In this document: positions 22,578 to 61,648 of the stretch, one piece after another | How the letters are laid out: the number at the start of each line of letters is the position of its first letter | Position numbering within the stretch: position 1 is the stretch's first letter | Assembly: GCA_963920705.1 (NCBI GenBank) | Contig: OY987232.1 | Span: forward strand, 10,381,318 to 10,445,317 | Direction: 5' to 3' | Length of the DNA: 64,000 bases | Source of the DNA: Odiellus spinosus | Lineage: Eukaryota > Arthropoda > Arachnida > Opiliones > Phalangiidae | Made by a program: the position numbers and the translations under genes | Notes under the pieces: model-generated | Told to the model about the DNA's origin: nothing | The model's database searches: none | The model's input: the letters and a program-made list of their open reading frames with translations, nothing else

Positions 22578-23241
22578 ATGTGTGGAGTGTTCCTAGACCT
22601 ACGGAAGGCCTTCGATAGTATTGCGCATGTCAGACTTCTTAGTAAATTATATCGTATGGGAATCCGGGGAGTGGCGGGAGATTGGCTGAAAAGCTACTTA
22701 ACAGATAGACCATGTTACACGAGAGTAGGTGAAAAACTGGCTAATGTTTTATTGCAAAAATATGATACCTCGTAAAATTTTATTTGAGATTTACTACGCT
22801 CTATTCTACTCAGTAATGACATATGGTCTCCAATTCTGGGGATGTACATCCAATAATAACACTAATCGAATACAAATCCTACAGAAGAGAGTACTACGAA
22901 GTATTTTTAATCTCCCTTCTAGACACCATACTTTTGATTACTTCAAACGAGCAAAATTATTAAATGTTAACGAATGTTTTAAATATGTTAGTATTTGTTA
23001 TATATACGAAGAATTAAAATATGGCTCAAAAAACTTCATTAAGAGAGAAAAAACGAGAAACACGAGATATAAAGAGATGTTGAAAGTACCTTTATGTAAA
23101 ACCACAAAAAAACTAATTTCCCTTTACTATAATGGTGTAAAATTATTTAATTCGCTAACTGTAGTACTCCAAAGCTTAAAACAATCAATTAGATGTTTTA
23201 AGAAGCAGATAAGACAACTAATCTTGGGAGGAGAGCTGTAA
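22578..23241 (+). pseudogene. Non-LTR retrotransposon (LINE) reverse transcriptase fragment, internally deleted
   Basis: From 22,578 the frame reads [20 protein letters not shown] and on to [11 protein letters not shown], the palm motif region (F-LDL-KAFD, then the W-x-x-S-YL-x-x-R block) of Jockey/CR1-type reverse transcriptases. At about 22,765 the frame shifts and the sequence jumps to the C-terminal part (IYYALFYSVMTYGLQFWG, then RIQILQKRVLRSIFN), ending at TAA 23,241. The stretch between, which should carry the catalytic Y-x-DD box and thumb, is absent. This is a dead, 5'-truncated and internally deleted copy. Confidence 0.85.
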
Positions 23242-24480: not shown

Positions 24481-24758
24481 ATTAGCTAATGGGACAATAA
24501 TGCATTACACTTGATTGTCGACCCATAACATAGAACACTGGCGCGTTCTCTGTACAGTTTCTTCTTACGTTTCTTATAATCCCTATCAGGTGTGGTATTT
24601 TTTCTCCTTTATTCACTATTAAGGGATCTAGTTCATAATGCCCTTTAGCAGGGAAATTTTACATTCTCTAACACCTTACTGAGGAACGGGATTATCCGCG
24701 TTTAATAATTAGTTACTCTCTCGCCAAAGATTAGTATTTCAGCTCATCCGCTTCTGAT

Positions 24759-24766
24759 TATAAATT
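24759..24766 (+). promoter_or_regulatory. Unit 1 TATA box
   Basis: TATAAATT sits 104 bp before the ATG, inside the block TTCAGCTCATCCGCTTCTGA-TTATAAA that is conserved in front of all four units. A start site about 30 bp downstream would leave a short leader. A pyrimidine tract plus CAG just before the ATG in every unit could alternatively be a 3' splice site for an upstream non-coding exon. Confidence 0.5.
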
Positions 24767-24862
24767 AGAGAAATCGATTAAAAAGACAGAAGATTAATTA
24801 ATCTATAAATAAGGGATATAATAATTGCGTGTTTTTCTAATCCAGGTGTTAAAATCTGAAAG

Positions 24863-27428
24863 ATGCTATCCAACCAAATGATCCTCCGTTTTACATTACG
24901 CTTCATCGCGCTCATACTCTTGGCCCTTCTTTTGGCAAACGCAGTTCATTCTATGGGTAATTAAAAAGTCAAATCATATTTTTTGTTATGAAAATTAACA
25001 ATTTTTTGACATCTAACAATCTATTTCTAAACCATTTTTTAATTGTATCGTCAACTAATTCTGTAGCTGAACGTAAGTATTTTTTGCGAAGTACAATTAG
25101 ATTCAAAAGTATTCAACATCCTTTCATAATTGTCTAACCAATGGATTCTGCAGCTGGTGGGTATAATTTATTTATTAGCTAATATAATATTCAAATTTTA
25201 AAATGCACTAATCAATAACTAAAAATTGCATATAAATGGATTCTACAGATCGTAAATATAATTCATTTATTAGTTAATAATAATCTAATTATAATTGTAA
25301 ACCAATGATTACCTTTTCATATTTGTGTAACCAATGAATTCTGCAGGTGGTGAGTATAATTATTTATTAACCAATAATATGGAAATTTTAATTACGCACT
25401 AATATATACCTTTTTAAAATTGTATAAAAAATAGGCTCTGCAGGAGGTAAGTGTAATACATTTATTGGCTAATAATAATCCAATTTTAATGGGTTACCTT
25501 TTCATAATTGTATAACTAATGTATTCTGCAGAGAGTGAGTCTATTTATTAACTAATTATATTAAAATTTTAAAAATTGACTAATAAATACCTTTTAAAAA
25601 TTGTATTTTGCAGAATGTAATTAAAATTCAATTATTAGTTAATAATAATTATCAATTTTAAACCAATGATTACCTTCTCACAATTGTGTAACAAATGGAT
25701 TGTTCAGATCGTGAGTCTATAATATTCAAATTTTAAAAATTATCTAATCAAATAACTTTTTAATATTGTATGAAAATTGATTTTGCAGGATGTAATTAAA
25801 ATTCAATTATTGGTTATTAATAATCCAATTTTAGATGTGAACTAATTAATAACTACCTTAAATAATTGCGAAATCAATGGATGATGCAGATCGTGGGTCT
25901 AATTATTTATTTACTAAACATATTGAAATTTTAAAAATTCACTAATCAACATATTTTTAAAATTGTGTAAAATATGGATTCTGCAGAATGTAGGTATAAT
26001 CCGAGCCCTTGTTAATACAAATCCAATTAATTAATGATTAACTTATCATAATTGTGTAACCAATGGATTCTGCAGATCGTGGGTTTAATTTTTTATTAAC
26101 TAATAACATTCGAATTTTAAAAATGCACTAATTAATATATTTTTAAAATTGTATTAAAATTGGATTCTGCAGAATGTAAGTACAATTCATGTATGGGTTA
26201 ATAATAACCGAATTTAATTTAATATTAATATTAATAACTTTTAATAATCGTGTAACCAATGGGCTCTGCAGATGGTAAGTACAATTGATGTATTGGTTAA
26301 TAATAACCTAATTATAAATGTGAACTAATGATTACCTTTTCATAATTATGTAACCAATGGATTCTGCAGATCGTGGGTTAAATAATTTATTATTTAATAA
26401 TATTCAAATTTTAAAAATGCACTAATCAATACCTTTTTAAAATTGTAATTTAAAATGGATTCTACAGGATGTGAGTATAATTCATTTATTGGTTAAAAAT
26501 CTTAATTGATTATATTTTTCAAAATCGTGTATTCAATGGATTCTACAGATGGTGGGTGTAATTATTAAATAAATTATAATATTTAAATTTAAAAATTCAC
26601 TAATCAATATCATTTGAAAATTGCAGGTCGTAAGTATAGTTCATATATTATTTAATAATAATCTAATTTTAAATGATTACCTTTTCATAATTATGTAACC
26701 AATTAATTCTGCAGAAAGTGGGTCTAATTATTTATTAACTAATAATATTAAAATATTAAAAATGCACTAATCAATATCATTTTTAAAATTGAATGAAAAT
26801 GGATTCTGCAGGATGTAAGTATTCATGTATTGGTTAGTAATAATCCAATTTTAAATGTGATTTAATGATAACCTTTTTATAATAATGTAACCAATGTAAT
26901 TCTGCAGTGCGTGCGTATAATTCATTTATTGGTTAATTATAATCTAATTTTAAATGTGAACTAATGATTTCATTTTCATAATTATGTAACCAATGGATTC
27001 TGCAGCTCGTGCGTATAATTTATTTATCGGTTAATAGTAATCTAATTTAAAATACGAACTAATGATTACCTTTTCATAATTTTGTAACCAATCGATTCTG
27101 CAGATGGTAAGCATAATTAATTTATCGGTTAATAATTAGACCTGTTGATCGAGAGATAGCATCTAAATAAATACGTGTTTTAAATATAGTAGCTAATATA
27201 ATATTCAAATTTTCAAATTAAGCGGAAACGGGGCAAGGTTTAATTGTCGGTTTACGCGTTTTTGATTTCGCCGCGAGAATTTTAATTCTTTGTATTTCAT
27301 TACTCTGAATATTTAGCTGACTGAGATGATTGAAAATCAAGGATAGTTTTCGTTAGAGAAATGATGAAATATTTAATGATGAAATAGAGTTAGGACTAAA
27401 AATTTCACTCTCTTTTTCAGGGAAATAA
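24863..27428 (+). CDS. Unit 1: secreted peptide gene made of single-codon microexons
   Basis: Exon 1 (24,863-24,956, 94 nt) encodes a signal peptide: MLSNQM, basic FTLR, then a hydrophobic FIALILLALLLANA core. It ends in phase 1 at G|GTAATT. Exon 2 is CTGAAC at 25,067. Twenty-two 3-nt exons follow, each directly between AG and GT: 25,154; 25,249; 25,347; 25,444; 25,532; 25,614; 25,708; 25,789; 25,890; 25,987; 26,076; 26,173; 26,272; 26,370; 26,468; 26,549; 26,627; 26,715; 26,812; 26,908; 27,006; 27,104 (first bases). The last exon (27,421) gives Gly-Lys-TAA. Introns are 75-98 nt except the last (314 nt). The spliced frame has no stop and yields 57 residues. The secreted part starts AEPD, has a YRYQYQYDRY core and ends LPHGK, with no Cys. 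Function unknown; effector, structural or signalling peptide are all possible. Inferred from splice motifs only. Confidence 0.75.
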
Positions 27429-27433
27429 TAAAT

Positions 27434-27526
27434 GCCTTCAGCCAAGGGGAATCATCAATATTGCACATTGGGACAAGATACAGTTACTGCAGACGCCACG
27501 ATGATTCCACACCTTTATTTCGCACC
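27434..27526 (+). promoter_or_regulatory. Conserved 3' UTR stem-loop block, unit 1
   Basis: Starts GCCTTCAG six bases after the stop and ends CTTTATTTCGCACC. GGAATCATC (27,448-27,456) pairs with GATGATTCC (27,500-27,508) across a 43-nt loop containing TTGCACATTGGGACAAGATA and CTGCAGACGCCA. The same block with the same loop length follows units 2 and 3 and is better conserved than the mature peptides. It suggests a structured RNA element controlling localisation, stability or 3' processing. Confidence 0.7.
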
Positions 27527-27548
27527 TTTTAATTATATTAAATTTTGA

Positions 27549-27554
27549 AATAAA
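27549..27554 (+). terminator. Unit 1 polyadenylation signal
   Basis: AATAAA about 23 bp after the conserved 3' UTR block; unit 3 has one in a comparable place (39,711). Confidence 0.6.
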
Positions 27555-27599
27555 TTGTTGAAGGAGTTTTCACCTTTCAACTAATTAACTTGAAGGTCA

Positions 27600-28020
27600 A
27601 TTATTAATGTAGAAGCTGTCGGTTGTATAAAATATTGGCTAGAACAGTTTCAAGCGTTCAACAATAGCTTAGCATTTTAATTCAGCACGTTCATTATCGA
27701 AGTAGTAACCTTATAATATTGACTTTTGCTAATTGATAATAAGCTTATCTATTTCGATTGGTCGCTTATAAAATTGAACATTAATTTTAAAAACAATTTG
27801 GTCAAAGATAAAATAAGCGTTTAAAATTTCCGATTTATTTCTTGTTCTAGGTACCAATTTTTGTGGCCCTTTGAAGCGGTGCACTTCGGGACCATGATCC
27901 ATAGGACGTTTTTTATCTACCAACAAATTACTGGTATTCAAACGTATAACGATGGATAAGAAAATTCACATTTAAGAATTAGTCTAAAATATAAGAAATA
28001 TATTTCAAACTCACTTTTAA
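27600..28020. other. Spacer between units 1 and 2
   Basis: The first part (AACTTGAAGGTCAATTATTA, ATGTAGAAGC) matches sequence after unit 3 (39,790-39,830), so it belongs to the duplicated gene block. The remainder is unassigned; the 70-residue minus-strand frame has no support. Confidence 0.5.
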
Positions 28021-28026
28021 TTCGAA

Positions 28027-28413
28027 CAGAAGCCGATAAAACTCTTCTTTGAAGTCTACTACTCTAATGTTCCATATAGCGCGCCTCTCTGTATTGGTAA
28101 AATCAGAAGCCGATGAAACCCTCCTTTGAAGTCTACTACTCTAATGTTCCATATAGCGCTCCTCTCTGTATGGGTAAAATTCCCGATTTTACGAGATCGG
28201 AGGGGTCCTACTTCAAACCACCCTGTCTACGGAAAATTGGAAATTCTCTCTCTCCATAAACGACGACGTTTGGTTGACGAACTCCAAGGTTGCTCCGAAA
28301 ATATCAACCGTTAGGAGGCGTACGAATCGCGCTTTTTGAAACTAACCCATACAGAGAGGGGTTGACAAGACCAGGGAGTAATAGACTTCAAAGGAGGGTT
28401 TCATCGGCTTCTG
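28027..28413 (+). mobile_element. CAGAAGCC-family MITE, copy B, with duplicated left end
   Basis: Flanked by ATTCGAA on both sides (28,020-28,026 and 28,414-28,420), a 7-bp duplication. The first 77 bp are a partial tandem copy of the left end; a full-length copy follows from 28,104. Since the duplication flanks the whole, the doubled end was there at insertion or arose inside the element later. Confidence 0.88.
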
Positions 28414-29261
28414 ATTCGAAGAATATAAAATAAAACAACGAAATTAAGATTATAAATCATGTTTTTATTCGTTGTCATATTCACAAAGAGCAGTTTAGTT
28501 TTATTATCGTTGTACGAATAAGCGAAGTAATGAGATTATAATTGCTTTCATACGCAGAGTATACGTCAATGCTTTTTAATTCTCTTAACTTTAACAATTA
28601 ATTATAATTGTAAATGTACTACATAAAAAGCGGCTTCTCAAGTCGAGTAAAATCATCTGTAGCTTTCGTTTCGCGTCGTTTAGAAGTTTTAATATCAAAA
28701 CCGTGAGTTTTTAAATTATTTTTCTTATTTTCGAAAAATATAGTTATCCATTTTGATTACGAATTATCCGTTATCCCAAAATTTCAGTTAAAATGAATTT
28801 AAATACGAATGAATTTTATTAGACTGCTATGGAATAGGCCCGCAGTACCCTCGTATAGATAATTCATCAACAATTATTTTAGATTAGGAAAACAATGGCT
28901 TTTAAACTCCGCGTATAACTAGTGATGTTGTTTCCTTAATGTTAAACATAGGAAGAATAGCAATCGAAAATTGGAAGAGCCGTCTTCTCCTACCAAAAAA
29001 CACCATTTTGTAAGAAGATCTCATTATCCGATTCGGGTCAAACCCGTGAAGGAAACAGAAATTAATTGTAGGAGAAAGAGCAATTTAATATTTTTAAAAC
29101 TATAGTTCTAGATGATTAAAAAGTTTCCAAAAAACGGATTAAGTCGAACTTGGAAACCATTCTATTCTTTCGTTGTTAATTTTAAATTCTTGTAATTATG
29201 ACTAATGTAAATAGCTCATGATGGAGTTATATGATGGTCCATACCTTGTGTCACAAGTTGT
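28414..29261. other. Spacer with half of a GCGAAGCAAC-type foldback
   Basis: At 28,985-29,160 the series CAAACCCGTGAAGG, GAGAAAGAGCAATTTAATAT and CCAAAAAACGGATTAAG matches one arm of the foldbacks at 4,590 and 16,312; the second arm is missing. Nothing coding is seen in the rest. Confidence 0.55.
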
Positions 29262-29361
29262 TTGGCAGTTAAGGGATCTAGTTCTTAATGCCCTTTAGCA
29301 ATGAAATTTGAAATTCCTTAATACCTTATACCGAGGAAGGGGATTATCCACGTTTAATAAG

Positions 29362-29616
29362 GTAAGGTTCCAAATGCGCAGTTACCTTTTGCGCAGTTTT
29401 CCATTTCCACAGTTTCCATTTGCGCTTTTTTCATTTGCGCAGTGTTCATTTGCAGGTTATGATAGGTTACGTTAGTTAATCACTTGAACTAGCCTGTCCC
29501 TCTTGTGAACAGCTCGAATAGCAAACTGCGCAAATGGGAACCGCGCAAATGGAAATGCGCAAATGGTAAACCGCGCAAATGGCTACTGCGCAAATGAAAA
29601 TGCGCAAGCGGACGCA
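29362..29616. repeat. Palindromic TGCGCAAATGG minisatellite insertion
   Basis: Many copies of TGCGCAAATG and its complement CATTTGCGCA in both orientations around a short centre. They interrupt the promoter-proximal block that is continuous in unit 1 (24,690-24,700). A related cluster is at 35,800-35,876. Confidence 0.75.
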
Positions 29617-29700
29617 AACCTTTAATAATTACTCTCCAGCCAAAGATTATCGTGTTGAACAATAATTGCAGTATTGTATTTAAGCTCATCCGCTTCTGAT

Positions 29701-29708
29701 TATAAAAT
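29701..29708 (+). promoter_or_regulatory. Unit 2 TATA box
   Basis: TATAAAAT, 95 bp before the ATG, in the same AGCTCATCCGCTTCTGAT context as in the other units. Confidence 0.5.
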
Positions 29709-29795
29709 AGAGCAAATCGATTAAATTAATTAATCTAGAAATAAGGGAACCTAATGATGGCGGGTTTTTTTAATCCAGGTTTTAGAATCTGAAAG

Positions 29796-32700
29796 ATGCT
29801 ACCCAACCAAATGGTACTCCGTTTTACTTTAGGGTTCATCGTGGTCATACTGCTGGCAAACGCAGTTGGAACTATGGGTAATTTAAAAAAATCAAATCAT
29901 ATTTTTTGAGCACATTTCTATTTTTTCAGCGATTTGAAAATTTCAAAATATTTTTTTCTAAACTTCCCGGTTCCTAAATAGTCCGTAACCATCGTTATTA
30001 AGGGGATGGCTCGTTTGCGGTCACTACGGAAATTCATTCCATAGTCACTAAAGAACAAACGTTATCAAAAGGTCACTTAGACCAGAAAATTTCTATATAT
30101 TTAGTTATAACTAAATTGACTTACTGAAACGAAAACGATATTATTATAGCTAAAATAATTAAAGGGAGAATGCAAACTAATTACAAGTGATTTTTTATCG
30201 ATTCCTTATCGTTTAAATAGACCTAATCCACCGATAAAAAGTTTACAATACAAATATTAAACTAGAAATAAATTTAAAACTTACCATGAAAATAGGCTTA
30301 GCGGGATTCATAGAGATCCTGAATCGCGTCCGTGTAAGGTCTAGCGACCAATGGATTAAGCCTATTTAAACAATAAGGAATCGATAAAAAATCACTTGTT
30401 GTTAGGTTTCATTCTCCCTTTAATGGTTGAAGGTTTAAACGTGACAGATACAAAAGCACCCGCCCCAATCTGTAAAATCATCCTGCAATTGGGTATTTAG
30501 GTACATACATAAGTATTCCCAGTGTATCCTTTCTTGATATGGATGAAAATTAACATTCTTTTGAAATCTAACAAACTATTTTAAATCATTTTTTAATTGT
30601 ATCGTCTACTAATTTTACAACTGAACGTAAGTACATTAAGTGAATTACAATTAGCTTCGGTAGCATTCAAATTTTAAGGAATCAATATCTTTTCATAATT
30701 GCGTTACCAATGGATTCTGCAGGTGAGTTAATTATTTATTATCTAATATTGAAATTTTAAAAATGCAATACATTTACTGGTTAATAATAATAATCCAATT
30801 TTAAATGTGTGCCAATGATTACCTTTTCATAATTGCAAAACTAGTGGATTATGCAGCGAGTGGGTCTAAACACTTTTTAACTAATAATATAAAAAAATGG
30901 ACTAATCAGTACCTTTTTAAAATTGTATATAAAAATGGATTCTGCAGCAAGTAAATAAAATTCAATTATTGGTTAGTAATTATCAAATTTTAAACCAACG
31001 ATTACCCATTCTCAATTGTGTAACAAATGGATTGTGCAGAGCGTGATTCTAAGCGTGAGTCTAATTATTTATTAACTCATAATATTTAAATTATAAAAAT
31101 GCACTAATCAATATCTTTTTAAAATTGAATAAAAATTAATTTTGCAGGTGGTAAGTATAATTGATTTATAAACTTATAATATTAAAATTTTCAATACATT
31201 CTATGCCTAATCAATACATTTCTAATATTGAATAAAAATGTATTCCGTAGACCGTGAGTATAATTCATTTAGTAGTTAATAATAATCTAGTTTTAAAAGT
31301 AAACTAATGAATACTTTTCTCATAATTGTGTAACCAATGGATTCTGCAGCTGGTGGGTATAACTATTTATTAACTAATAATATTTAAGTTTTAATACATT
31401 CTAATCAATATCTTATTAATATTTTTTAAAAATTAATTCTGCAGGACGTAAGTATAATTGATTTATAAACTAATAATATTAAAATTTTTAATATATTCTA
31501 ATCAATACATTTTTAATATTGAATAAAAATTTATGCTACAGCATGTAAGTACAATTCATTTATGAACTAATAATATTAAAATTTTTAATACATTCTAATC
31601 AATATATTTTTAATATTGAATAAAAATGTATTCCGTAGACCGTGAGTATAATTCATTTAGTAGTTAAAAATAATCTCGTTTTAAAAGTAAACTAATGAAT
31701 ACTTTTCTCATAATTGTGTAACCAATGGATTCTGCAGTAGGTGGGTATAACTATTTATTAAATAATAATATTTAATTTTTAATACATTCTAATCAATATC
31801 TTATTAATATTTTATAAAAATTAATTCTGCAGGACGTAAGTATATTTGATTTATAAACTAATAATATTAAAATTTTTAATACATTCTAATCAATACATTT
31901 TTAAAATTGAATAAAAATGTATGCTACAGCATGTAAGTACAATTCATTTATGAACTAATAATATTAAAATTTTTAATATATTCTAATCAATATATTTTTA
32001 ATATTGAATAAAAATGTATTCCGTAGACCGTGAGTATAATTCATTTAGTAGTTAATAATAATCTAGTTTTAAAAGTAAACTAATGAATACTTTTCTCATA
32101 ATTATGTAACCAATGGATTCTGCAGCTGGTGGGTATAACTATTTATTAACTAATAAAATTTAAGTTTTAATACATTCTAATCAATATCTTATTAATATTT
32201 TTTAAAAATTAATTCTGCAGGACGTAAGTATAATTGATTTATAAACTAATAATATTAAAATTTTTAATACATTCTAATCAATACATTTTTAATATTGAAT
32301 AAAAATGTATGCTACAGCATGTAAGTACAATTCATTTATGAACTAATAATATTAAAATTTTTAATATATTCTAATCAATATATTTTTAATATTGAATAAA
32401 AATGTATTCCGTAGACCGTGAGTATAATTCATTTAGTAGTTAATAATAATCTAGTTTTAAAAGTAAACTAATGAATACTTTTCTCATAATTGTGTAACCA
32501 ATGGATTCTGCAGCTGGTGGGTATAACTATTTATTAACTAATAATATTTAAGTTTTAATACATTCTAATCAATATCTTATTAATATTTTTAATAATTAAT
32601 TCTGCAGGACGTAAGTATAATTGATTTATAAACTAATAATATTAAAATTTTTAATACATTCTAATCAATACATTTTTAATATTGAATAAAAATGTATGCT

Positions 32701-35304
32701 ACAGCATGTAAGTACAATTCATTTATGAACTAATAATATTAAAATTTTTAATACATTCTAATCAATATATTTTTAATATTGAATAAAAATGTATTCCGTA
32801 GACCGTGAGTATAATTCATTTAGTAGTTAAAAATAATCTAGTTTTAAAAGTAAACTAATGAATACTTTTCTCATAATTGTGTAACCAATGGATTCTGCAG
32901 TAGGTGGGTATAACTATTTATTAACTAATAATATTTAATTTTTAATACATTCTAATCAATATCTTATTAATATTTTATAAAAATTAATTCTGCAGGACGT
33001 AAGTATATTTGATTTATAAACTAATAATATTAAAATTTTTAATACATTCTAATCAATACATTTTTAATATTGAATAAAAATGTATTCTACAGCATGTAAG
33101 TACAATTCATTTATGAACTAATAATATTAAAATTTTTAATACATTCTAATCAATATATTTTTAATATTGAATAAAAATGTATTCCGTAGACCGTGAGTAT
33201 AATTCATTTAGTAGTTAAAAATAATCTAGTTTTAAAAGTAAACTAATGAATACTTTTCTCATAATTGTGTAACCAATGGATTCTGCAGTAGGTGGGTATA
33301 ACTATTTATTAACTAATAATATTTAATTTTTAATACATTCTAATCAATATCTTATTAATATTTTATAAAAATTAATTCTGCAGGACGTAAGTATATTTGA
33401 TTTATAAACTAATAATATTAAAATTTTTAATACATTCTAATCAATACATTTTTAATATTGAATAAAAATGTATGCTACAGCATGTAAGTACAATTCATTT
33501 ATGAACTAATAATATTAAAATTTTTAATACATTCTAATCAATATATTTTTAATATTGAATAAAAATGTATTCCGTAGACCGTGAGTATAATTCATTTAGT
33601 AGTTAATAATAATCTAGTTTTGAAAGTAAACTAATAAATACTTTTCTCATAATTGTGTAACCAATGGATTCTGCAGATGGTGGGTATAACTATTAATTGA
33701 TAATATTATTTTTTTTTAATACATTCTAATCAATACCTTTTTAATATTGAATAAAAATGTATGCTGCAGGACGTAAGTATAATTCATTTAGTAGTTAATA
33801 ATAATCTAGTTTTGAAAGTAAACTAATAAATACTTTTCTCATAATTGTGTAACCAATGGATTCTGCAGATGGTGGGTATAACTATTAATTGATAATATTA
33901 TTTTTTTTAATACATTCTAATCAATACCTTTTTAATATTGAATAAAAATGTATGCTGCAGGACGTAAGTATAATTCATTTAGTAGTTAAAAATAATCTAG
34001 TTTTAAAAGTAAACTAATGAATATCTTTCTCATAATTGTGTAACCAATGGATTCTGTAGAGCGTTCGTATAACTATTTATTAACTAAAAATATTGAAATT
34101 TTTAATACATTCTAATCAATACCTTATTAATATTAAATAAAAATGTATTCTGCAGATGGTGCGTATAATTAATTTAGTGGTTAATAATAAACTAGTTTTA
34201 AAAGTAAACTAATGAAAACCTTTCTCATAATTGTGTAACCAATGGATTCTGCAGAAGGTGGGTATAAATATTTTTTAACTAATAATATTGAAATTTTTAA
34301 TACATTCTAATCAATATCTTATTAATATTGTATAAAAATTAATTCTGCAGGACGTAAGTATAATTGATTTATAAACTAATAATATTAAAATTTTCAATAC
34401 ATTCTAATCAATATATTTTTAATATTGAATAAAAATGTATTCAATATGTATGAGTATAATTCATTTAGTAGTTAATAATAATCTACTTTTAAAAGTAACC
34501 AATGGATTCTGCAGATGGTGGGAATAACTATTTATTAACATGCACTAATCAATACCTTTTTAAATTTGTATTAGAGCAGGTGTAGAAGTATACTTCTATT
34601 ATAATTTTAATTGTGAACTAACAATTAATTTTGTTAATTGTGTAACAACGATCGATTCTGTTACTATAAAATATTTACTGGTTAATACTAGAAACGCATT
34701 CTCTACAAATTAAAGGGAGAATGGAACCCCATAACAAGTGTTTTTTTATCGATCCCTCTTGTATGAAGAGGTAGAAAACTACATATAACTATAAAGTAGG
34801 CTTAAACAGAATCCATCAACACAGGCTTAGCTGGATTCATGGAGATATCCTGAATTCCCAATAGAAGGATCAATGACATTATATGGGGAATGTAGGATCT
34901 CCATGAATCCAGCTAAGCCTATTTTGATAGTAAGTTTGAAATTCATTTCTAGTTTAATATCTTTTTAATTGTTTTACTGGTGCATTATATTTATTTAAAC
35001 GATAAAGAATCGATAAAAAAATCGCTTGTTAGGTTGCTTTCTGCCTTTAAAGGCTAAATTTTCACTGATCCATTTTCGCCGTGGTCTTGAAACAAAATTT
35101 TGTTTTACGGCGCAATCTTTCATTAGTAATCTTGTCAGGACAACTTAATTTAGATAAATGTTAATACTTTTTTAGAATCTGTACACTGTCTTGGCGGGTG
35201 AGAAACGGACACGGGGGGGGGGGCGGTGCATTAGAGAAATTACTCAAAACATTTAAGTGGAGTTACGACTAAAAATTTGACTCTCTTTTTCAGGGAAACT
35301 GTAA
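29796..35304 (+). CDS. Unit 2: microexon gene encoding a PGPY/LGPY repeat peptide
   Basis: Exon 1 (29,796-29,877) encodes a 27-residue signal peptide (MLPNQMVLRF... FIVVILLANA), phase 1. The exon-2 equivalent (30,621, CTGAAC) has lost its AG, and the next module (30,721) has no bases between AG and GTGAGT. About 38 3-nt exons follow, starting at 30,857, 30,948, 31,040 (3 or 15 nt), 31,148, 31,251, 31,350, 31,445, 31,542 and then every 90-97 bp to 34,351, plus 34,515. The last exon (35,294) gives Gly-Lys-Leu-TAA. From 31,350 to 33,580 the exons cycle CTG or TAG, GAC, CAT, ACC; in phase 1 that is Pro/Leu-Gly-Pro-Tyr six times, then a His/Gly-rich tail. Total about 68 residues. A Pro/Gly/Tyr-rich secreted repeat suggests a structural, adhesive or effector peptide; that is conjecture. 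Module at 34,440 is degenerate. Confidence 0.7.
30163..30419. mobile_element. TTAA-flanked MITE in unit 2 intron 1
   Basis: Ends AGGGAGAATG...CATTCTCCCT, flanked by TTAA at 30,159-30,162 and 30,420-30,423, with internal TTATCGATTCC / GGAATCGATAA arms. TTAA duplication is typical of piggyBac- and Kolobok-type transposases. Confidence 0.8.
30721..30728 (+). promoter_or_regulatory. Zero-length exon: AG directly abutting GTGAGT
   Basis: In this module the acceptor CTGCAG runs straight into GTGAGT with no exon between. This is the layout of a recursive (ratchet) splice site, and it could arise by loss of a 3-nt exon. Confidence 0.5.
31249..33600 (+). repeat. 390-bp higher-order repeat of four microexon modules
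   Basis: ACC exons recur at 31,251; 31,639; 32,027; 32,415; 32,802; 33,190; 33,578, a period of 387-388 bp. Within each period the four introns are nearly identical between copies. Each period equals one tetrapeptide. This is recent tandem amplification of a four-exon block inside the gene. Confidence 0.9.
34714..35046. mobile_element. TTAA-flanked MITE in last intron of unit 2
   Basis: Same family as 30,163-30,419 (AGGGAGAATGGAAC end, ATCGATAAAAAAATCGCTTG near the other). TTAA lies at 34,710-34,713 and 35,047-35,050. The arms contain GGCTTAGCTGGATTCATGGA and its complement. Confidence 0.8.
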
Positions 35305-35306
35305 AA

Positions 35307-35396
35307 GCCTTCAGCCCCGTGGAATCATCAAACATGCACATTGGGACAAGACACATTTACTGCAGACGCCATGATGATTCCACACCTTTATTTCGC
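35307..35396 (+). promoter_or_regulatory. Conserved 3' UTR stem-loop block, unit 2
   Basis: GTGGAATCATC (35,319-35,329) pairs perfectly with GATGATTCCAC (35,373-35,383); the loop is 43 nt, as in units 1 and 3. No AATAAA follows directly; the downstream sequence instead matches the more distal part after unit 3 (about 39,845 on), pointing to a small deletion. Confidence 0.7.
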
Positions 35397-35419
35397 ACAT
35401 TTCTCTACATTTGTTTGTA

Positions 35420-36085
35420 TCCCAAATTAAGAGAAAGCTAATATTGTATTATTATACTATGCATTTTATTATAATATAAAATCAGAAATTAGGAAAACAT
35501 TTATTGTAATTTATTTTTCTTATCATAAAACAATCGAGGGGAATGAGAGTTTAAAGCTTACTTTGGAACCAAGGGGAAAAATATACGATGAAATATTCTA
35601 GTAAATAACAAATCTGGGAAATTGAGAAATCAACGGAAGCGTATTATTCGAAGCAGTTTAAAAATAAACAGCAACCAATTATTAACTTGCATTGTAAGAA
35701 ATTCACCGTACTTTTTACTGCCTAACCTTACTTATTACGTTGCCCCCTCCTCCATCTAGAAGGGAAAGCTATTTGTTACAAAATTAAAATGGAAACCTGC
35801 GGAAATAGAAAACTGCGCAAATGAAAAACTGCGCAAAAGGAAATGCGCTTGTGGGAACTGCGCAATTGGAACCTTATCTTTCAAACCGCCTCAGATTTTC
35901 TCATCCTGCAAACTTCTCTTGAACTTAGGAAAAGGCCAGCTATCGTTCATTTAGGTACTAATAAAAAATATTTTTAAATTACATTTTAGGGAGATATCTC
36001 CTTTTCTTTTTAGCTTGAAACAGGCCGTCGTAAAAGTTGTTTGATCCCTTAAAAGGGTGGTAAAATGGTGGCTGACGACTATAAT
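35420..36085. other. Spacer after unit 2
   Basis: Homologous in part to the region after unit 3 (CCAAATTAAGAGAAA, ATACTATGCATTTTATTATA, TCAACGGAAGCGTAT). A TGCGCAAATG-type minisatellite lies at 35,800-35,876. No gene seen. Confidence 0.55.
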
Positions 36086-36434
36086 CAGAAGACGATGAAA
36101 CCCTCCTTTGTAGTCTATTACTCCCGGGTCTTGTCTACCCCTCTCTGTATGGGTTAGTTTCAAAAAGCGCGATTCGTACGCCTCCCAACGGTAGATATTT
36201 TCGGAGCGGGAGTTCGTCCAGCGAATATCTCTAGCAGCCTTGGAGTTCGTCAAAAAAAAAAAAAAAAAACGTCGTCGTTTGTGGAGAGAGAGAATTTCCA
36301 ATTTTCCGTAGACAGGGGGGTATGAAGTAGGACCCATCCGATCTCGTAAAATCAGGAATTTTACCCATACAGAGAGGAGCGCTATATCGAACATTAGAGT
36401 AGTAGACTTCAAAGGAGGGTTTCATCGGCTTCTG
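36086..36434 (-). mobile_element. CAGAAGCC-family MITE, copy C
   Basis: Full-length, opposite orientation to copies A and B, with an internal A tract at about 36,252-36,270. Flanks CTATAAT and CAATAAT match at six of seven positions, consistent with an old 7-bp duplication. The open frames here are MITE sequence. Confidence 0.88.
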
Positions 36435-36689
36435 CAATAATTATATATAACGAATGTTTAGCTTCCTTACTGATGTTCCTACTCTGTTTTTCCTTATGGC
36501 ACCTATTAATTAATCAACTGAAAGCTCCACTTTAAAAATTACAAAAATTGCGATTTTAAATGTACTTTTATCGTTGTATGTTTAGAATCGTTTTTCAATG
36601 AATTTTCCGAAAATGCTACTCAATTTCCATTTGGAGGTAGTTAATGAAAAATCCGTTACAGCCTCACTTATTAGAAGTCCATAGTACGA

Positions 36690-37742: not shown

Positions 37743-39608
37743 ATGCTATCCAGCCAAATGGTCCAACGTTTTTCATTGCGATTCGTCGCGTTCACAGCCA
37801 TGGCCCTTCTTCTGGCAAAAGCTGCTTATTCAGGTAATTAAAATGACAAACCGATCAAATCAAATCATATTTTTGGTGCACTTTTATAATTATATTCCCC
37901 GAGTCCCCCGACAGGTCGTAGTCTCAAATTTTAGCGGATAAAATTTTTTAGCTAATTCGATTTATAGACATTTCATTATTTAATATATCTAATAATAAAT
38001 AGTTTCGCGAAAAAGCCTTTAAATAAACCAGAAAACCTGGGTTCGAGAATTTCGAGTTAAAACTGATAATACAACAATTTTGGTCAAAAATTGTGTCCAA
38101 AAGTTTTTCCAAATAATGGTAGTTTAGATGACTGCAAACGTGTTCCCCACTAAATAATGCCAGAAAAATCGATTGCAAGTTTTCAAATGTCCATCTTAAT
38201 GCCCAACAAACTAGCCTGAATTCCCGGTTCCTATCCATTACCATCGATATTTAGTTTGCAGTCCTACACCCTACTAATTCAATAGCCAATCACAGAACAG
38301 CATTAGTCACGTGAGCTTAAGACGTTATCAAATGGCGAGCCAGTTAGGGTCCCCATTACCAAGTTAGGTTATACGCTAGGGCTCGTTTTGTAACCGTGGC
38401 TGCGCAAAAGGTGTTGGTCAAAGAGGGCTGAAAACGCGTTGAGTGGCTGGGTGATGAACCTATAGACATCTTTCCAAAAAGTGTACCAAGTAAGGGGGCT
38501 CCTACCCTAACCATGTGAACTAATATTGACCTTTTCATAATTGTGTAACCAATGGATTCTGCAGGTCGTAAGTATAATTATTATCTAATGTATTAAAATT
38601 TAATATGCACTAATCAATACCTTTTTAATTTTGTATGAAAATGGATTTTGCTAATAATAATCTAATTTTAAATGTGAACTAATATTTAACTTTTCATAAT
38701 TGTGTAACCAATGGATTCTGCAGAAGGTAGGAATTATTCATTTATTGGTTATTAATAATCTAATTTTTAATGTTGACTAATGATTACCTTTCCATTATTG
38801 TGTAGCCAATGAATTCTGCAGATTGTGCGTATAATTATTTACGAACTAATAATATTGAAATTTTTCATACGTACTAATGAATACCTTTTTTAATATTGTA
38901 TAAAAATGGATTCTGCAGATGGTATTATTCATTTATTGTTTAATAATAATCGAATTTTAAATGTGAATTAATGTTTACCTTTTATTAATTGTGCAACCAA
39001 TGGATTCTGTAGGAAATTGGTCTAGTTATTTATTGAAAATAATATTATGGATTAACGGGAATCCATACATATTTTTCACTAAACTAAATGCCATTCCCTC
39101 AGTGTTGCCAAACACTTGTGAGCGCAAATTGAAGCGTATTAGTTTGCTCTAAACTGCGCTCACAAACTCCTGGCAGCCCTACAATGAAAGGAAAGCTGGG
39201 AATGAGGGGTATAATTTTATTTTGTCCCTTTATCAAAAACTACGTATATAGTGTGTTTAAAATCTCGTCGTTAACGAGTCTACGGCCAATCAAGCGAGAT
39301 TCGCGCGATTTACCCTGACAGTAAAAGATTGAAACTCACCTCGGCTCTCTGTTAAGCTTTGTTTCTATGTTTTAAATAGTCTTATTTCTTATAATAATTT
39401 GTAAATGTTTTCTAGTGAATTAGGATTATTTAAAACAGGTTAGATCCCCACCGCAAAATTGCCTAGTACACAGGCACTCGAAAGGGAGGGAGCTCTAGAG
39501 AGCAAGGGGGGGCTCAAAAAGTTACAAAAACGAGAAAACTGAAAACCTGTAAGTGGAGTTACGACTAAAAATCTGAAAATTCTCTCTCCATTTCTTCTGG
39601 AATATATT
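37743..39608 (+). pseudogene. Unit 3: microexon paralog, probably decayed
   Basis: Exon 1 (37,743-37,833) is an intact signal peptide (MLSSQMVQRFSLRF, then a VAFTAMALLLAKA core) ending phase 1 at TCA G|GTAATT. Only four intact 3-nt exons remain: GTC 38,565, AAG 38,724, ATT 38,822, ATG 38,919 (in phase: Gly, Gln, Asp, Tyr). The module near 38,641 lacks its splice sites, the one at 39,013 has lost its donor GT, and the last acceptor reads TTCTGG where units 1 and 2 have TTCAGG (39,596-39,601). Intron 1 contains about 600 bp of other sequence. The 3' UTR block is nevertheless intact. It may be a pseudogene or may use other sites. Confidence 0.6.
39088..39205. mobile_element. Small palindromic MITE in unit 3
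   Basis: CAGTGTTGCCA...TTGTGAGCGCA on the left and TGCGCTCACAA...TGGCAGCCCTA on the right form a foldback with a spacer of about 28 bp. CAGTGTTGCCA resembles hAT tips, but I cannot find a convincing target duplication. Confidence 0.6.
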
Positions 39609-39613
39609 AAACG

Positions 39614-39706
39614 GCCTTCAGGCCCGTGGAATCATCAACCTTGCACATTGGGACAAGATACATTTATTGCAGACACCACGATGATTCCACACCTTTATTT
39701 CGCACC
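39614..39706 (+). promoter_or_regulatory. Conserved 3' UTR stem-loop block, unit 3
   Basis: GTGGAATCATC (39,626-39,636) pairs with GATGATTCCAC (39,680-39,690); loop 43 nt. It is as well conserved as in unit 1 despite decay of the coding part. Confidence 0.7.
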
Positions 39707-42144: not shown

Positions 42145-42962
42145 ATGCTATCGAACAAAATGATCCACCGTTTTACTTTACTCTTCATCATGTTCATGAT
42201 CTTGACCCTTCTACTTGCAAACTTAGCCGATTATCTGGTTAATTAAAAAGACAAAATTTGACCCGCCCCAATATGAAAAAAATATCCTACAAAGGGATAT
42301 TTAGATACATAAGAATACCCTTGAAAACAATTGAATTCTATATAACTACGGGTAAAATTAAATCCTACGTTTTTCTAACTTTACAATTAATTAATTCCGC
42401 AGATGGTAAGAATGATTTAACTCGGATATTAACATTGTCTCGTTATTTAACCACCATTTTCTAAACCGTTTCTTAATTTTATCGTCTACTAATTCTGCAG
42501 CTGGCGGTAAGTATATTTTGTGAATTAGTTTCGGTAGTATTCAAATTTTAAAAATGAACTAACTAAACCTTTTCAAAATTGTGTAACCAATGGATTCTGC
42601 AGCTAAAATTGATGGTAAGTAATCAAATTTTAAAAAAGTACTAATGAATATATTTCAATTATTCTGCAGTTGGTGAGTATAATTTAATGGTTAATAACAA
42701 TGTAGATGAACTAAAAAATACCTTTTCATAATTGTGTAACCAATGGATTCTGCAGCTAAAATTGATGGTGTGTATAACTTATTTATTAGCTAAAAGAAAT
42801 CAAATTTTAAAAAAGCACTAATGAATACCTTTTCATAATTGTGTAACTAATGGATTCTGCAGCTCGTAAGTATAATTTATTTATTGGTTAATATTAATCA
42901 ATATTAAATGTGAATTAATAAATACCTTTTCATAATTGTGTAACCAATGGATTCTGCAGCTC
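42145..42962 (+). CDS. Unit 4: microexon paralog, 5' part
   Basis: Exon 1 (42,145-42,238) encodes MLSNKMIHRF and a FIMFMILTLLLANLA core. Its donor is changed from G|GTAATT to G|TTAATT; a GT one base upstream would shift the phase, and reading through meets TAA at once. Microexons: ATG 42,403; CTGGCG 42,501; a 12-nt exon 42,603-42,614; TTG 42,670; the same 12-nt exon 42,756-42,767; CTC 42,863; CTC 42,960. In phase 1 the 12-nt exons give Ala-Lys-Ile-Asp and the whole reads without a stop. The array is cut at about 43,001 by a giant element and resumes at 61,594. Probably crippled, unless the shifted donor and a long intron are tolerated. Confidence 0.55.
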
Positions 42963-43000
42963 GTAATTTATTTATTGGTTAGCAATTATCAAATAGTAAA

Positions 43001-43930: not shown

Positions 43931-46900
43931 TAACATCCAAAATAATGAAACAAATAATTTAAATTTAAATTAAAGGGTAATGGGAAAAATATGAATATTT
44001 CGCTGCAGCTGTCGGAGGTATTAACATCAAAAATTATGAAAAAATTATTTTAAATTTGGTTTAAGGGCAATGGGGAAAATATAAAGATTTCGCTGCGGTT
44101 GACGGAGGTATTAACATCAAAAATGATGAAAAAATAAATTTTAATTGGGATTAAAGGGCACTGGTAAAAATGTAGAGATTTGACTGGAATCAAGTGCGGC
44201 TGCCGGAGGTATTAACATAAAAAATTATGAAAAAATTAATTTTAATTGGGATTAAAGGGCACTGGTAAAAATGTAGAGATTTGACTGGAATCAAATGCGG
44301 CTGCCGCAGCTATTAACATCAAAAATTATGAAAAAATTAATTTTAATTGGGATTAAAGGGCACTGGTAAAAATGTAGAGATTTAACTGAATCAAGTGTGG
44401 CTGCCCCAGCTATTAACATCAAAAATAATGAAAAAATTAATTTTAATTGGAATTAAAGGGCACTGGTAAAAATGTAGAGATTTGACTGGAATCAAGTGCG
44501 GCTATCGGAGGTATTAACATCTAAAATTATGAAAAAATTAATTTTAATTGGGATTAAAGGGCACTGGTAAAAAAGTAGAGATTTGACTGAATCTAGTGCG
44601 GCTGCCCCATCTATTAACATCAAAAATTATGAAAAAAATAATTTTAATTGGGATTAAAGGGCACTGGTAAAAATGTAGAGATTTAACTGAATCAAGTGTG
44701 GCTGCCCCAGCTATTAACATCAAAAATAATGAAAAAATTAATTTTAATTGGAATTAAAGGGCACTGGTAAAAATGTAGAGATTTGACTGGAATCAAGTGC
44801 GGCTGTCGGAGGTATTAACATCTAAAATTATGAAAAAAATTAATTTTAATTGGATTAAAGGGCACTGGTAAAAATGTAGAGATTTGACTGGAATCAAGTG
44901 CGGCTGTCGGAGGTATTAACATCAAAAATTATGAAAAAATTAATTTTAATTGGGATTAAAGGGCACTGGTAAAAATCTAGAGATTTAACTGAATCAAGTG
45001 TGGCTGCCCCGCTATTAACATCAAAAATAATGAAAAAATTAATTTTAATTGGAATTAAAGGGCACTGGTAAAAATGTAGAGATTTGACTGGAATCAAGTG
45101 CGGCTGTCGGAGGTATTAACATCTAAAATTATGAAAAAATTAATTTTAATTGGGATTAAAGGGCACTGGTAAAAATGTAGAGATTTGACTGAATCAAGTG
45201 CGGCTGCCCCAGCTATTAACATCAAAAATTATGAAAAAAATAATTTCAATTGGGATTAAAGGCACTGGTAAAAATGTAGAGATTTAACTGAATCAAGTGC
45301 GGCTGCCCACGCTATTAACATCAAAAATAATGAAAAAATTAATTTTAATTGGGATTAAAGGGCACTGGTAAAAATGTAGAGATTTGTGTGGAATCAAGTG
45401 CGGCTGTCGGAGGTATTAACATCTAAAATTATGAAAAAAATTAATTTTAATTGGATTAAATTGCACTGGTAAAGATGAAGAGATTTGACTGGAATCAAGT
45501 GCGGCTGTCGGAGGTATTAACATCTAAAATTATGAAAAAATTAATTTTAATTGGGATTAAAGGGCACTGGTGAAAATGTAGAGATTTGACTGAATCAAGT
45601 GCGACTGCCCCAGCTATTAACATCAAAAATTATTAAAAAAATTTATTTTAATTGGGATTAAAGGGCACTGGTAAAAATGTAGAGATTTGACTGAATCAAG
45701 TGCGGCTGCCCCAGCTATTAACATCAAAAATAAGGAAAAAAGTAATTTTAATTGGGATTAAAGGGCAATGGTAAAAATGTAGAGATTTGACTGAATCAAG
45801 TGCGGCTGAACCAGCTATTAACATCAAAAATAAGGAAAAAAGTAATTTTAATTGGGATTAAAGGGCAATGGTTAAAATGTAGAGATTTGACTGAATCAAG
45901 TGCGGCTGCCCCAGCTATTAACATCAAAAACAATGTAAAAATTAATTTTAATTGGGATTAAAGGGCAATGGTAAAAATGTAGAGATTTGACTGAATCAAG
46001 TGCGGCTGCACCAGCTATTAACATCAAAAATTGTGAAAAAATTTATTTTAATTGGGTTTAAAGGGCAATGGTAAAAATGTAGAGATCTGATTGAATCAAG
46101 TGCGGCTGCCGCAGCTATTAACATCAAAAATTATGAAAAAATTAATTTTAATTGGGATTAAAGGGCACTGGTAAAAATGTAGAGATTTGACTGAATCAAG
46201 TGCGGCTGCCGCAGCTATTAACATCAAAAATTATGAAAAAATTAATTTTAATTAGGTTTAAAGGGCAATGGTAAAAATGTAGAGATCTGACTGAATCAAG
46301 TGAGGCTGCCGCAGCTATTAACATTAAAAATTATGAAAAAATTAATTTTAATTGGGATTAAAGGGCAATGGTAAAAATGTAGAGATTTGACTGAATCAAG
46401 TGCGGCTGCACCAGCTATTAACATCAAAAATTGTGAAAAAATTTATTTTAATTGGGTTTAAAGGGCAATGGTAAAAATGTAGAGATCTGACTGAATCAAG
46501 TGCGGCTGCCGCAGCTATTAACATCAAAAATTATGAAAAAATTAATTTTAATTGGAATTAAAGGGCACTGGTAAAAATGTAGAGATTTGACTGGAATCAA
46601 GTGCGGCTGTCGGAGTTATTAACATCTAAAATTATGAAAAAATTAATTTTAATTGGGATTAAAGGGCACTGGTAAAAATGTATAGATTTGACTGAGTCAA
46701 GTGCGGCTGCCCCAGCTATTCACATCAAAAATAATGAAAAAATTAATTTTAATTGGGATTAAAGGGCAATGGTAAAAATGTAGAGATTTGACTGAATCAA
46801 GTGCGACTGCCCCAGCTATTAACATCAAAAATTATGAAAAAATTAATTTTAATTGGGATTAAAGGGCACTGGTAAAAATGTAGAGATTTGACTGAATCAA

Positions 46901-49900
46901 GTGCGGCTGGCCCAGCTATTAACATCGAAAATAAGGAAAAAAGTAATTTTAATTGGGATTAAAGGGCAATGGTAAAAATTTAGAGATTTGAATGAATCAA
47001 GTGCGGCTGCCCCAGCTATTAACATCAAAAATAAGGAAAAAAGTAATTTTAATTGGGATTAAAGGGCAATGGTAAAAATGTAAAGATTTGACTGAATCAA
47101 GTGCGGCTGCCCCAGCTATTAACATCAAAAATTGTGAAAAAATTTATTTTAATTGGGTTTAAAGGGCAATGGTAAAAATGTAGAGATCTGACTGAATCAA
47201 GTGCGGCTGCCGCAGCTATTAACATCAAAAATTATGAAAAAATTAATTTTAATTGGGATTAAAGGGCACTGGTAAAAATATAGAGATTTGACTGAATCAA
47301 GTGCGGCTGCCGCAGCTATTAACATTAAAAATTATGAAAAAATTAATTTAAATTAGGTTTAAAGGGCAATGGTAAAAATGTAGAGATTTGACTGAATCAA
47401 GTGCGGCTGGCGCAGCTATTAACATCAAAAATTATGAAAAAATTAATTTTAATTGGGATTAAAGGGCACTGGTAAAAATGTAGAGATTTAACTGAATCAA
47501 GTGCGGCTGCCCCAGCTATTAACATCAAAAATAATGAAAAAATTAATTTTAATTGGGATTAAAGGGCACTGGTAAAAATGTAGAGATTTGACTGGAATCA
47601 AGTGCGGCTGTCGGAGGTATTAACATCTAAAATTATGAAAAAATTAATTTTAATTGGATTAAAGGGCACTGGTAAAAATGTAGAGATTTGACTGAATCAA
47701 GTGCGGCTGCCCCAGCTATTAACATCAAAAATAATGAAAAAATTAATTTTAATTGGGATTAAAGGGCAATGGTAAAAATGTAGAGATTTGACTGAATCAA
47801 GTGCGACTGCCCCAGCTATTAACATCAAAAATTATGAAAAAATTAATTTTAATTGGGATTAAAGGGCACTGGTAAAAATGTAGAGATTTGACTGAATCAA
47901 GTGCGGCTGCCCCAGCTATTAACATCAAAAATAAGGAAAAAAGTAATTTTAATTGGGATTAAAGGGCAATGGTAAAAATGTAGAGATTTTACTGAATCAA
48001 GTGCGGCTGCCCTAGCTATTAACATCAAAAATAAGGAAAAAAGTAATTTTAATTGGGATTAAAGGGCAATGGTAAAAATGTAGAGATTTGACTGAATCAA
48101 GTGCGACTGCCCCAGCTATTAACATCAAAAATTATTAAAAAAAATTATTTTAATTGGGATTAAAGGGCACTGGTAAAAATGTAGAGATTTGACTGAATCA
48201 AGTGCGGCTGCCCCAGCTATTAACATCAAAAATAAGGAAAAAAGTAATTTTAATTGGGATTAAAGGGCAATGGTAAAAATGTAGAGATTTGACTGAATCA
48301 AGTGCGGCTGAACCAGCTATTAACATCAAAAATAAGGAAAAAAGTAATTTTAATTGGGATTAAAGGGCAATGGTAAAAATGTAGAGATTTGACTGAATCA
48401 AGTGCGGCTGCCCCAGCTATTAACATCAAAAACAATGTAAAAATTTATTTTAATTGGGTTTAAAGGGCAATGGTAAAAATGTAGAGATCTGATTGAATCA
48501 AGTGCGGCTGCCGCAGCTATTAACATCAAAAATTATGAAAAAATTAATTTTAATTGGGATTAAAGGGCACTGGTAAAAATGTAGAGATTTGACTGAATCA
48601 AGTGCGGCTGCCGCAGCTATTAACATTAAAAATTATGAAAAAATTAATTTTAATTAGGTTTAAAGGGCAATGGTAAAAATGTAGAGATCTGACTGAATCA
48701 AGTGAGGCTGCCGCAGCTATTAACATTAAAAATTATGAAAAAATTAATTTTAATTGGGATTAAAGGGCAATGGTAAAAATGTAGAGATTTGACTGAATCA
48801 AGTGCGGCTGCACCAGCTATTAACATCAAAAATTGTGAAAAAATTTATTTTAATTGGGTTTAAAGGGCAATGGTAAAAATGTAGAGATCTGACTGAATCA
48901 AGTGCGGCTGCCGCAGCTATTAACATCAAAAATTATGAAAAAATTAATTTTAATTGGAATTAAAGGGCACTGGTAAAAATGTAGAGATTTGACTGGAATC
49001 AAGTGCGGCTGTCGGAGTTATTAACATCTAAAATTATGAAAAAATTAATTTTAATTGGGATTAAAGGGCACTGGTAAAAATGTAGAGATTTGACTGAGTC
49101 AAGTGCGGCTGCCCCAGCTATTCACATCAAAAATAATGAAAAAATTAATTTTAATTGGGATTAAAGGGCAATGGTAAAAATGTAGAGATTTGACTGAATC
49201 AAGTGCGACTGCCCCAGCTATTAACATCAAAAATTATGAAAAAATTAATTTTAATTGGGATTAAAGGGCACTGGTAAAAATGTAGAGATTTGACTGAATC
49301 AAGTGCGGCTGCCCCAGCTATTAACATCGAAAATAAGGAAAAAAGTAATTTTAATTGGGATTAAAGGGCAATGGTAAAAATTTAGAGATTTGAATGAATC
49401 AAGTGCGGCTGCCCCAGCTATTAACATCAAAAATAAGGAAAAAAGTAATTTTAATTGGGATTAAAGGGCAATGGTAAAAATGTAGAGATTTGACTGAATC
49501 AAGTGCGGCTGCCCCAGCTATTAACATCAAAAATTGTGAAAAAATTTATTTTAATTGGGTTTAAAGGGCAATGGTAAAAATATAGAGATTTGACTGAATC
49601 AAGTGCGGCTGCCGCAGCTATTAACATTAAAAATTATGAAAAAATTAATTTAAATTAGGTTTAAAGGGCAATGGTAAAAATGTAGAGATTTGACTGAATC
49701 AAGTGCGGCTGGCGCAGCTATTAACATCAAAAATTATGAAAAAATTAATTTTAATTGGGATTAAAGGGCACTGGTAAAAATGTAGAGATTTGACTGAATC
49801 AAGTGCGGCTGCCCCAGCTATTAACATCAAAAATAATGAAAAAATTAATTTTAATTGGGATTAAAGGGCACTGGTAAAAATGTAGAGATTTGACTGGAAT

Positions 49901-53961: not shown

Positions 53962-53969
53962 ATTAAAGG

Positions 53970-61593: not shown

Positions 61594-61648
61594 TTAAAGG
61601 TGAACTAATCAAAATCTTTCATTATTGTGTTACCATTGGATTCTGCAG

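Follow-up and report, generated by a model that had tools for sequence, protein, structure and literature searches.

The gene at positions 24863-27428 of the window, the 64,000-nt stretch of DNA analyzed here (C8:10381318-10445317), is very probably an intact member of a multicopy protein-coding family in which most exons are a single codon long and are probably spliced stepwise. In this family, the sequence pattern strongly suggests that the triplet exons are spliced in. That this is a real gene of consecutive 3-nt exons, as a preliminary description had proposed, is supported by the reading phase, the absence of stops, exon lengths in multiples of three and the decay of copies without a signal exon.

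Anatomy of the Window Gene

Re-reading of 24863-27428 confirmed the anatomy that had been put forward, namely a signal-peptide exon, a 6-nt exon, 22 triplets and a terminal exon, as well as the uninterrupted frame obtained by joining them. The joined exons amount to 174 nt, corresponding to 57 codons and a stop, and end in GG AAA TAA. The features of the gene are the following, each of the 3-nt exons being located between AG and GT.

24829..24845, + strand, probable 3' splice site of a 5'-UTR intron (putative acceptor: pyrimidine-rich stretch and CAG upstream of the ATG)
24863..24956, + strand, exon 1, 94 nt, start codon and signal peptide, ending 1 base into a split codon, donor GTAATT
25067..25072, + strand, exon 2, 6 nt, CTGAAC, in the joined-frame model
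25154..25156, + strand, 3-nt exon CTG
25249..25251, + strand, 3-nt exon ATC
25347..25349, + strand, 3-nt exon GTG
25444..25446, + strand, 3-nt exon GAG
25532..25534, + strand, 3-nt exon AGA
25614..25616, + strand, 3-nt exon AAT
25708..25710, + strand, 3-nt exon ATC
25789..25791, + strand, 3-nt exon GAT
25890..25892, + strand, 3-nt exon ATC
25987..25989, + strand, 3-nt exon AAT
26076..26078, + strand, 3-nt exon ATC
26173..26175, + strand, 3-nt exon AAT
26272..26274, + strand, 3-nt exon ATG
26370..26372, + strand, 3-nt exon ATC
26468..26470, + strand, 3-nt exon GAT
26549..26551, + strand, 3-nt exon ATG
26627..26629, + strand, 3-nt exon GTC
26715..26717, + strand, 3-nt exon AAA
26812..26814, + strand, 3-nt exon GAT
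26908..26910, + strand, 3-nt exon TGC
27006..27008, + strand, 3-nt exon CTC
27104..27106, + strand, 3-nt exon ATG
27421..27428, + strand, terminal exon, coding part GG AAA TAA (Lys, stop), acceptor TTTTTCAG, with at least 40 related places in the genome
27448..27508, + strand, hairpin-capable stretch in the presumed 3' UTR (GGAATCATC ... GATGATTCC), an inverted repeat seen in the six family copies matched by this pattern

The intron range of 75-98 nt given in the preliminary description applies to the 22 introns from the 6-nt exon to the last triplet, but not to the first intron (110 nt) or to the last one (314 nt). The triplet donors do resemble GTRRGT: this motif follows exactly after 16 of the 22 triplets, the six others being followed by GTAATT (2), GTGCGT (2), GTAAAT (1) and GTAAGC (1). 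A CTAAY branch-point-like motif was found 15-60 nt before the acceptor in 18 of the 24 introns, compared with a mean of 3.6 in mononucleotide shuffles, with the reservation that the modules are related by descent and that 24 introns are not 24 independent events. Its commonest positions were 41 and 58 nt upstream of the acceptor.

The predicted protein of 57 codons, MLSNQMILRFTLRFIALILLALLLANAVHSM then AEPDRGEKYRYQYQYDRYGQRLPHGK, starts with a hydrophobic, signal-like leader and contains no cysteine, and a search of a large protein collection returned no relative of it. Rfam gave nothing at the gathering threshold in 24500-36500, a region that includes the hairpin-capable stretch.

Spacing Between Acceptor and Donor

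The constancy of the AG-to-GT distance, which the preliminary description had noted, was borne out by pattern searches. A loose AG-k-GT pattern run over the + strand of the window matched 57 times at k = 3 and 1-14 times at each other k in the range 0-15. Across the 443-Mb assembly, TTCTGCAG-NNN-GTRNGT returned 481 modules (349 forward, 132 reverse) against 9 for the reversed-pattern control, the positions listed being about the first hundred of these. The corresponding searches with k = 1-2 combined gave 4 matches (on C1, C12, and C14; control 189, which is unusually high) and those with k = 4-5 combined gave 13 (on C1-C16), as many as the control (13); C8 carries none of the 17 matches. At k = 6, there were 18 matches, 17 on C8 and one on C169, for a control of 9. 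Since k = 3 lies far over its control, k = 1-2 and 4-5 are at background and k = 6 falls in family loci, we conclude that a spacing of three is maintained and that six is also tolerated.

From 131 strict modules we derived a position weight matrix for the acceptor half and another for the donor half, and scanned 182,563 non-redundant bases with each independently. At the middle threshold, the spacers measured 3 nt (264 cases), 6 nt (12), 12 nt (4), and 0, 2, 9, and 15 nt (one each). The non-zero lengths were divisible by 3 in 282 of 283 acceptor-donor pairs, these pairs coming from 282 acceptors because one acceptor was read both as 3 and as 15 nt; 17 matches of 21-24 nt were omitted since the same acceptor already had a nearer donor. 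The only 2-nt module at this threshold is at C1:15579915, and lengths of 7, 8, 16, 22, 23, 25, 28, and 29 turned up in small numbers at the loosest threshold. The intron lengths (n = 202, including one value of -3 that comes from the doubly read acceptor) were distributed as 54, 72, and 76 across the residues modulo 3. Free variation of the spacing in relatives, which the preliminary description would have held against a gene of this kind, was not what we found among paralogues of the same genome: there the spacing changes by threes, with one exception in 283 and one zero-length module.

We also considered a compensation between the last base of the triplet and the donor (U1 pairing), which gave P = 8e-5 on the 264 modules and P = 0.37 on the 83 distinct triplet-donor combinations. 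As it had no significance on the latter, it was set aside as an effect of common descent.

Reading Phase and Frame

Chaining of neighboring modules up to 150 bp apart produced 48 chains with 250 exons. When the junction codons are read in the phase that the signal exon imposes (phase 1), none of the 231 is a stop, compared with 29 of 231 in phase 2. The 6 stops among 279 codons in phase 0 are TAG triplets of other arrays, which do no harm when read in phase 1. Shuffling led us to expect 12.5-14.7 stops in phase 1, where none was observed; because the modules are related by descent, such counts are not independent, and the P values assume independence except in one test. This test was added on account of the relatedness of the copies and used only distinct neighbor pairs (n = 92), which again contained no stop, the mean in re-paired sets being 3.4 (P about 0.014), although even these pairs can be related.

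The signal exon ends one base into a codon in all 29 copies recovered by its search and is open in 28 of them. Owing to this one-base overhang, the internal exons all begin at the second position of a codon. The residues read in phase 1 across the modules are mostly Tyr, Gly, Arg, Pro, Gln, Glu, Asp, and Ala, with neither Cys nor Trp in the scanned modules, and they form repeats such as GPYPGPYL in the adjoining gene (29796) and EPEPEPEPE in another copy.

The Gene Family Across the Assembly

Matches to the signal exon were recovered at at least 29 places in the assembly (19 on C8), and matches to the terminal exon at at least 40 (25 on C8). The copies on C8 form clusters at about 4.27-4.39, 6.60-6.62, 7.50-7.51, 8.69-8.70, 10.40-10.47, and 13.96-14.11 Mb, and further matches lie on C4, C6, C9, C10, C11, C82, C169, C200, and C275. 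In four of the 29 copies, the signal exon is 12 nt shorter, in frame. Upstream of the ATG, all 29 have an AG after a T-rich stretch, located farther away in L053 and L058 and present as AAG in L059. The window itself contains four signal exons, at 24863, 29796, 37743, and 42145, the last one not being among the 29. The second belongs to a neighboring family gene with the following features.

29796..29877, + strand, signal exon of the second family gene, 82 nt (12 nt shorter, in frame; L056)
30723..30723, + strand, zero-length module of the second gene, CTGCAG followed directly by GTGAGT, in the form of a recursive-splicing ratchet point
30857..34517, + strand, array of the second gene, 36 AG-NNN-GT modules by pattern match
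35294..35304, + strand, terminal exon of the second gene, coding part GG AAA CTG TAA

Part of this array is a 388-bp repeat of four modules that codes for Pro/Leu-Gly-Pro-Tyr. The second gene (29796-35304) has lost the acceptor AG of its 6-nt exon. The third copy of the window (37743-39620), with few recognizable modules and a broken terminal acceptor, is probably a pseudogene. The stretch 42145-43000 contains the fourth signal exon and, after it, exons measuring 3, 6, and 12 nt; at 61641-62034 there is another array of modules, for which no signal exon is visible. Elsewhere on C8, the array of one copy includes six 6-nt CTGAAC exons with a period of ~118 bp that read as Glu-Pro repeats (C8:14098716-14099302; L048, L065). 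A ~10-kb array of family modules followed by a terminal exon GG AAA TAG is located on the minus strand of C6:5293501-5303693. It could be read as a gene with about 100 modules; because of its many weak donors (such as GTTGTA and GTGGTA), we do not claim that it is intact. As many family loci look decayed, including the 37743 gene and the C6 array, much of the family may be untranscribed.

Other features were noted as well. Arrays of a 100-bp satellite, in both orientations, lie beside the gene cluster (window 44109-53969, 55000-55519, 57256-59499, and 62998-64000). An open frame of 170 aa at window 22729-23241 presumably corresponds to the end of a non-LTR retrotransposon reverse transcriptase, which it resembles. 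Several places on C17 carry incomplete COX1 copies interrupted by stop codons, which are probably mitochondrial DNA inserted into the nuclear genome.

Constraint Among Five Copies

We aligned the window gene (W) with four other copies, B (C8:13960530), C (C8:4385297), D (C8:7495600-7498500), and E (C8:8690500-8694700). W and C have both signal and terminal exons, B has a signal exon and a terminal exon known as a match only (C8:13963474), and D and E have no signal exon. The DNA of copy B is unrelated to the others from about 45-50 nt upstream of the ATG. The window copy is without one 97-bp module (triplet AAT) that is present in the four others.

Among W, B, and C, the columns of the AG, the GT and the exons vary in 1 case out of 164, compared with 77 out of 1682 for the intron columns (Fisher P = 0.005), and gapped columns number 0 in the former and 67 in the latter. 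All 23 internal exons are intact in each of these three copies. Their only exon change, ATG to ACG in C, converts TAT to TAC in phase 1 and is synonymous, both codons specifying Tyr. Variation is free at positions +3 to +6 of the donor among these three copies (10/92). Copies D and E lack this constraint: 5 of 157 AG, GT and exon columns vary compared with 48 of 1670 intron columns (P = 0.70; module 25249 left out), and in phase 1 both of their exon differences would alter the amino acid. Of the 23 modules, 3 are broken in D and at least 4 in E, the count of 4 scoring as intact an aligned AG-GTC-GT inside inserted DNA, where a direct search gave no ATC module. The contrast between the copies with and without a signal exon is what a coding, spliced gene predicts, although the numbers are small.

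Proposed Mechanism

In the model that we favor, the family product would be a small secreted peptide that, beyond the signal peptide and the last residues, is spelled by exons of 3 nt and sometimes 6-15 nt. Each triplet lies in intron phase 1: its first two bases complete a codon and its third base opens the following one. The introns, of ~95 nt with a consensus donor, a CTAAY branch-point-like motif and a CAG acceptor, would be removed by intron definition, one after another. We infer this stepwise removal because only one of two splice sites separated by three bases can be occupied at a time and because a 3-nt exon leaves no room for the machinery to assemble on both sides simultaneously. 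Insect introns under 100 nt are usually recognized across the intron. Each splice would add three bases to the growing upstream exon and enable the next donor, amounting to a recursive splicing that leaves three bases behind. The arrays grow or shrink as modules of ~97 bp, each an intron plus an exon, are duplicated in tandem or lost, one or several at a time, examples being the 97-bp module absent from the window copy and the four-module repeat of the 29796 gene; since the exon is one codon in phase 1-1, such gains and losses keep the frame.

We tentatively suggest that these expandable arrays with one codon per exon, requiring more than 20 ratchet-like splicings, might allow residues to be added, lost, shuffled or skipped in frame and might serve to diversify the peptides over evolutionary time, possibly even within one animal. 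The predicted peptides, which are small, presumably secreted, rich in Tyr, Gly, and Pro and drawn from a changing family, would be compatible with a role in saliva or other glandular secretions, in a structural material or in antimicrobial defense.

Provided that the triplets do become part of the mRNA, 24 splicing events would serve to produce a peptide of 57 residues, and introns would make up most of the primary transcript. The gene would be an extreme test of the minimal exon size and of the number of successive tiny exons, as well as a natural system in which to ask whether intron removal follows a strict order and how splice sites three bases apart avoid steric clash. It would open to study the evolution of a repeat protein codon by codon, via duplicated intron-exon modules. 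Exons under 8 nt are described as hard for annotation and RNA mapping (PMC8042270), so that whole gene families of this type may be overlooked.

Alternative Explanations

The triplets could be real exons that are included variably, skipping in any combination producing a mixture of peptides from a single locus. We regard this as a possibility to be taken seriously, albeit not the most probable one. All 22 triplets are in phase 1-1, which makes skipping neutral for the frame, and their donors differ, GTAATT and GTGCGT occurring beside GTAAGT. The alternative splicing of schistosome micro-exon genes points in the same direction. So do Drosophila micro-exons that come in multiples of 3 nt and change single residues when skipped or included (PMC8042270). 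Against this, copies W, B, and C have preserved the AG and GT of all 23 internal exons, which fits regular use of each.

It is unlikely that the family evolved as we propose and died recently, the window copy and most others being no longer expressed. Broken members do exist (D, E, the 37743 gene, and parts of the C6 array), but the window copy retains 23 of 23 internal exons together with intact signal and terminal exons, and W, B, and C are constrained.

We consider it quite improbable that the family is a very divergent lineage of bicycle genes whose exons shrank to single codons. The layout is common to both, a signal exon followed by many micro-exons starting at codon position 2 (PMC9168663), and the structure-only model published there, applied by hand, gave about +29.6 before the logistic step, far over the cut-off, of which 27.8 comes from the number of such exons alone. 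The window protein has no cysteine and hence no CYC motif, a point weakened by the acceptance in that paper of homologues without clear CYC, and the exons are far below the megacycle average of about 53 nt. The protein search gave no sequence relative. The mitochondrial protein of the assembly also does not look aphid-like.

A non-coding, satellite-like tandem repeat of ~97 bp, unspliced and with a conserved part that resembles CAG-NNN-GTRRGT by chance, is very doubtful. The modules are indeed in tandem with a period of about 97, the neighboring gene has higher-order units of 388 bp, and there are other satellites in the window. Such a repeat would leave unexplained the shared phase of the 29 signal exons, the 0 stops in 231 phase-1 codons, exon lengths that shift by threes while introns vary freely, the low variation of AG, GT and exons found only in copies with a signal exon, and terminal exons with a stop in the phase of the signal exon.

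That the triplets are only ratchet points of recursive splicing, subdividing one long intron and leaving incidental bases in the mRNA, is hardly credible despite the classical zero-length module at 30723 in the neighboring array, because the intron to be subdivided would measure only about 2.5 kb in total, because three bases are retained in 264 modules and none in a single one, and because the absent stops and in-frame 6-15-nt variants point to coding use.

Comparison With Known Systems

The micro-exon genes (MEGs) of Schistosoma have 10-20 exons of 6-81 bp according to the text (3-81 in the abstract), the majority of 15 bp, separated by introns of 0.1-5 kb (PMC10526429). Like them, the present family comprises multiple genes whose predicted secreted proteins are encoded by numerous tiny internal exons with lengths mostly divisible by three, the window gene having a signal-like exon of 94 nt and 23 internal exons. 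Unlike them, it belongs to an arthropod, 22 of the 23 internal exons of the window gene measure 3 nt and the introns between these are of 75-98 nt, so that exons mostly of 6-81 bp with introns of 0.1-5 kb are not its pattern. The COX1 contig is open in the invertebrate mitochondrial code and has what we take to be arthropod-type sequence and gene order, so that the genome is presumably not that of a schistosome.

The bicycle genes of aphids, phylloxerids, and coccids encode fast-evolving secreted micro-exon proteins with a signal peptide, and their internal exons start at codon position 2 (exon phase 2 in that paper); the megacycle genes exceed 100 micro-exons and have grown by internal tandem duplication, the one of M. 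sacchari having 118 exons for 2092 aa, about 53 nt per exon (PMC9168663). From these descriptions, they are the nearest system in an insect, being secreted, rich in micro-exons and with exons starting at codon position 2, as do the many micro-exons of the window gene. They differ in exon size (an average of about 53 nt in megacycle genes versus 3 nt here) and in the CYC motifs of typical, though not all, bicycle members, the predicted 57-aa window protein having zero cysteine.

That 3-nt exons are known elsewhere, as the preliminary description stated, is correct, and exons of 1-3 nt can be spliced. Isolated exons of 1 or 3 nt are reported in Arabidopsis APC11 (PMC4674806), Drosophila TnT (PMC8042270) and Drosophila homothorax (PMC7392893), and Dactylellina lipS has two 3-nt exons (PMC5639578). 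In these accounts there are one or two per otherwise ordinary gene, compared with runs of at least 22 here. With recursive splicing, the family shares the juxtaposition of acceptor and donor and a probably stepwise removal. Recursive splicing as described subdivides long introns and leaves nothing in the mRNA, whereas here each step would leave three bases; the AG directly before GT of a recursive splice site was seen in one zero-length module compared with 264 of three bases. Among the matches listed from searches of the open-access full-text literature, there was no description of a run of 3-nt exons. Micro-exon gene families are already known, and the unbroken run of 3-nt exons would be an extreme variation on them.
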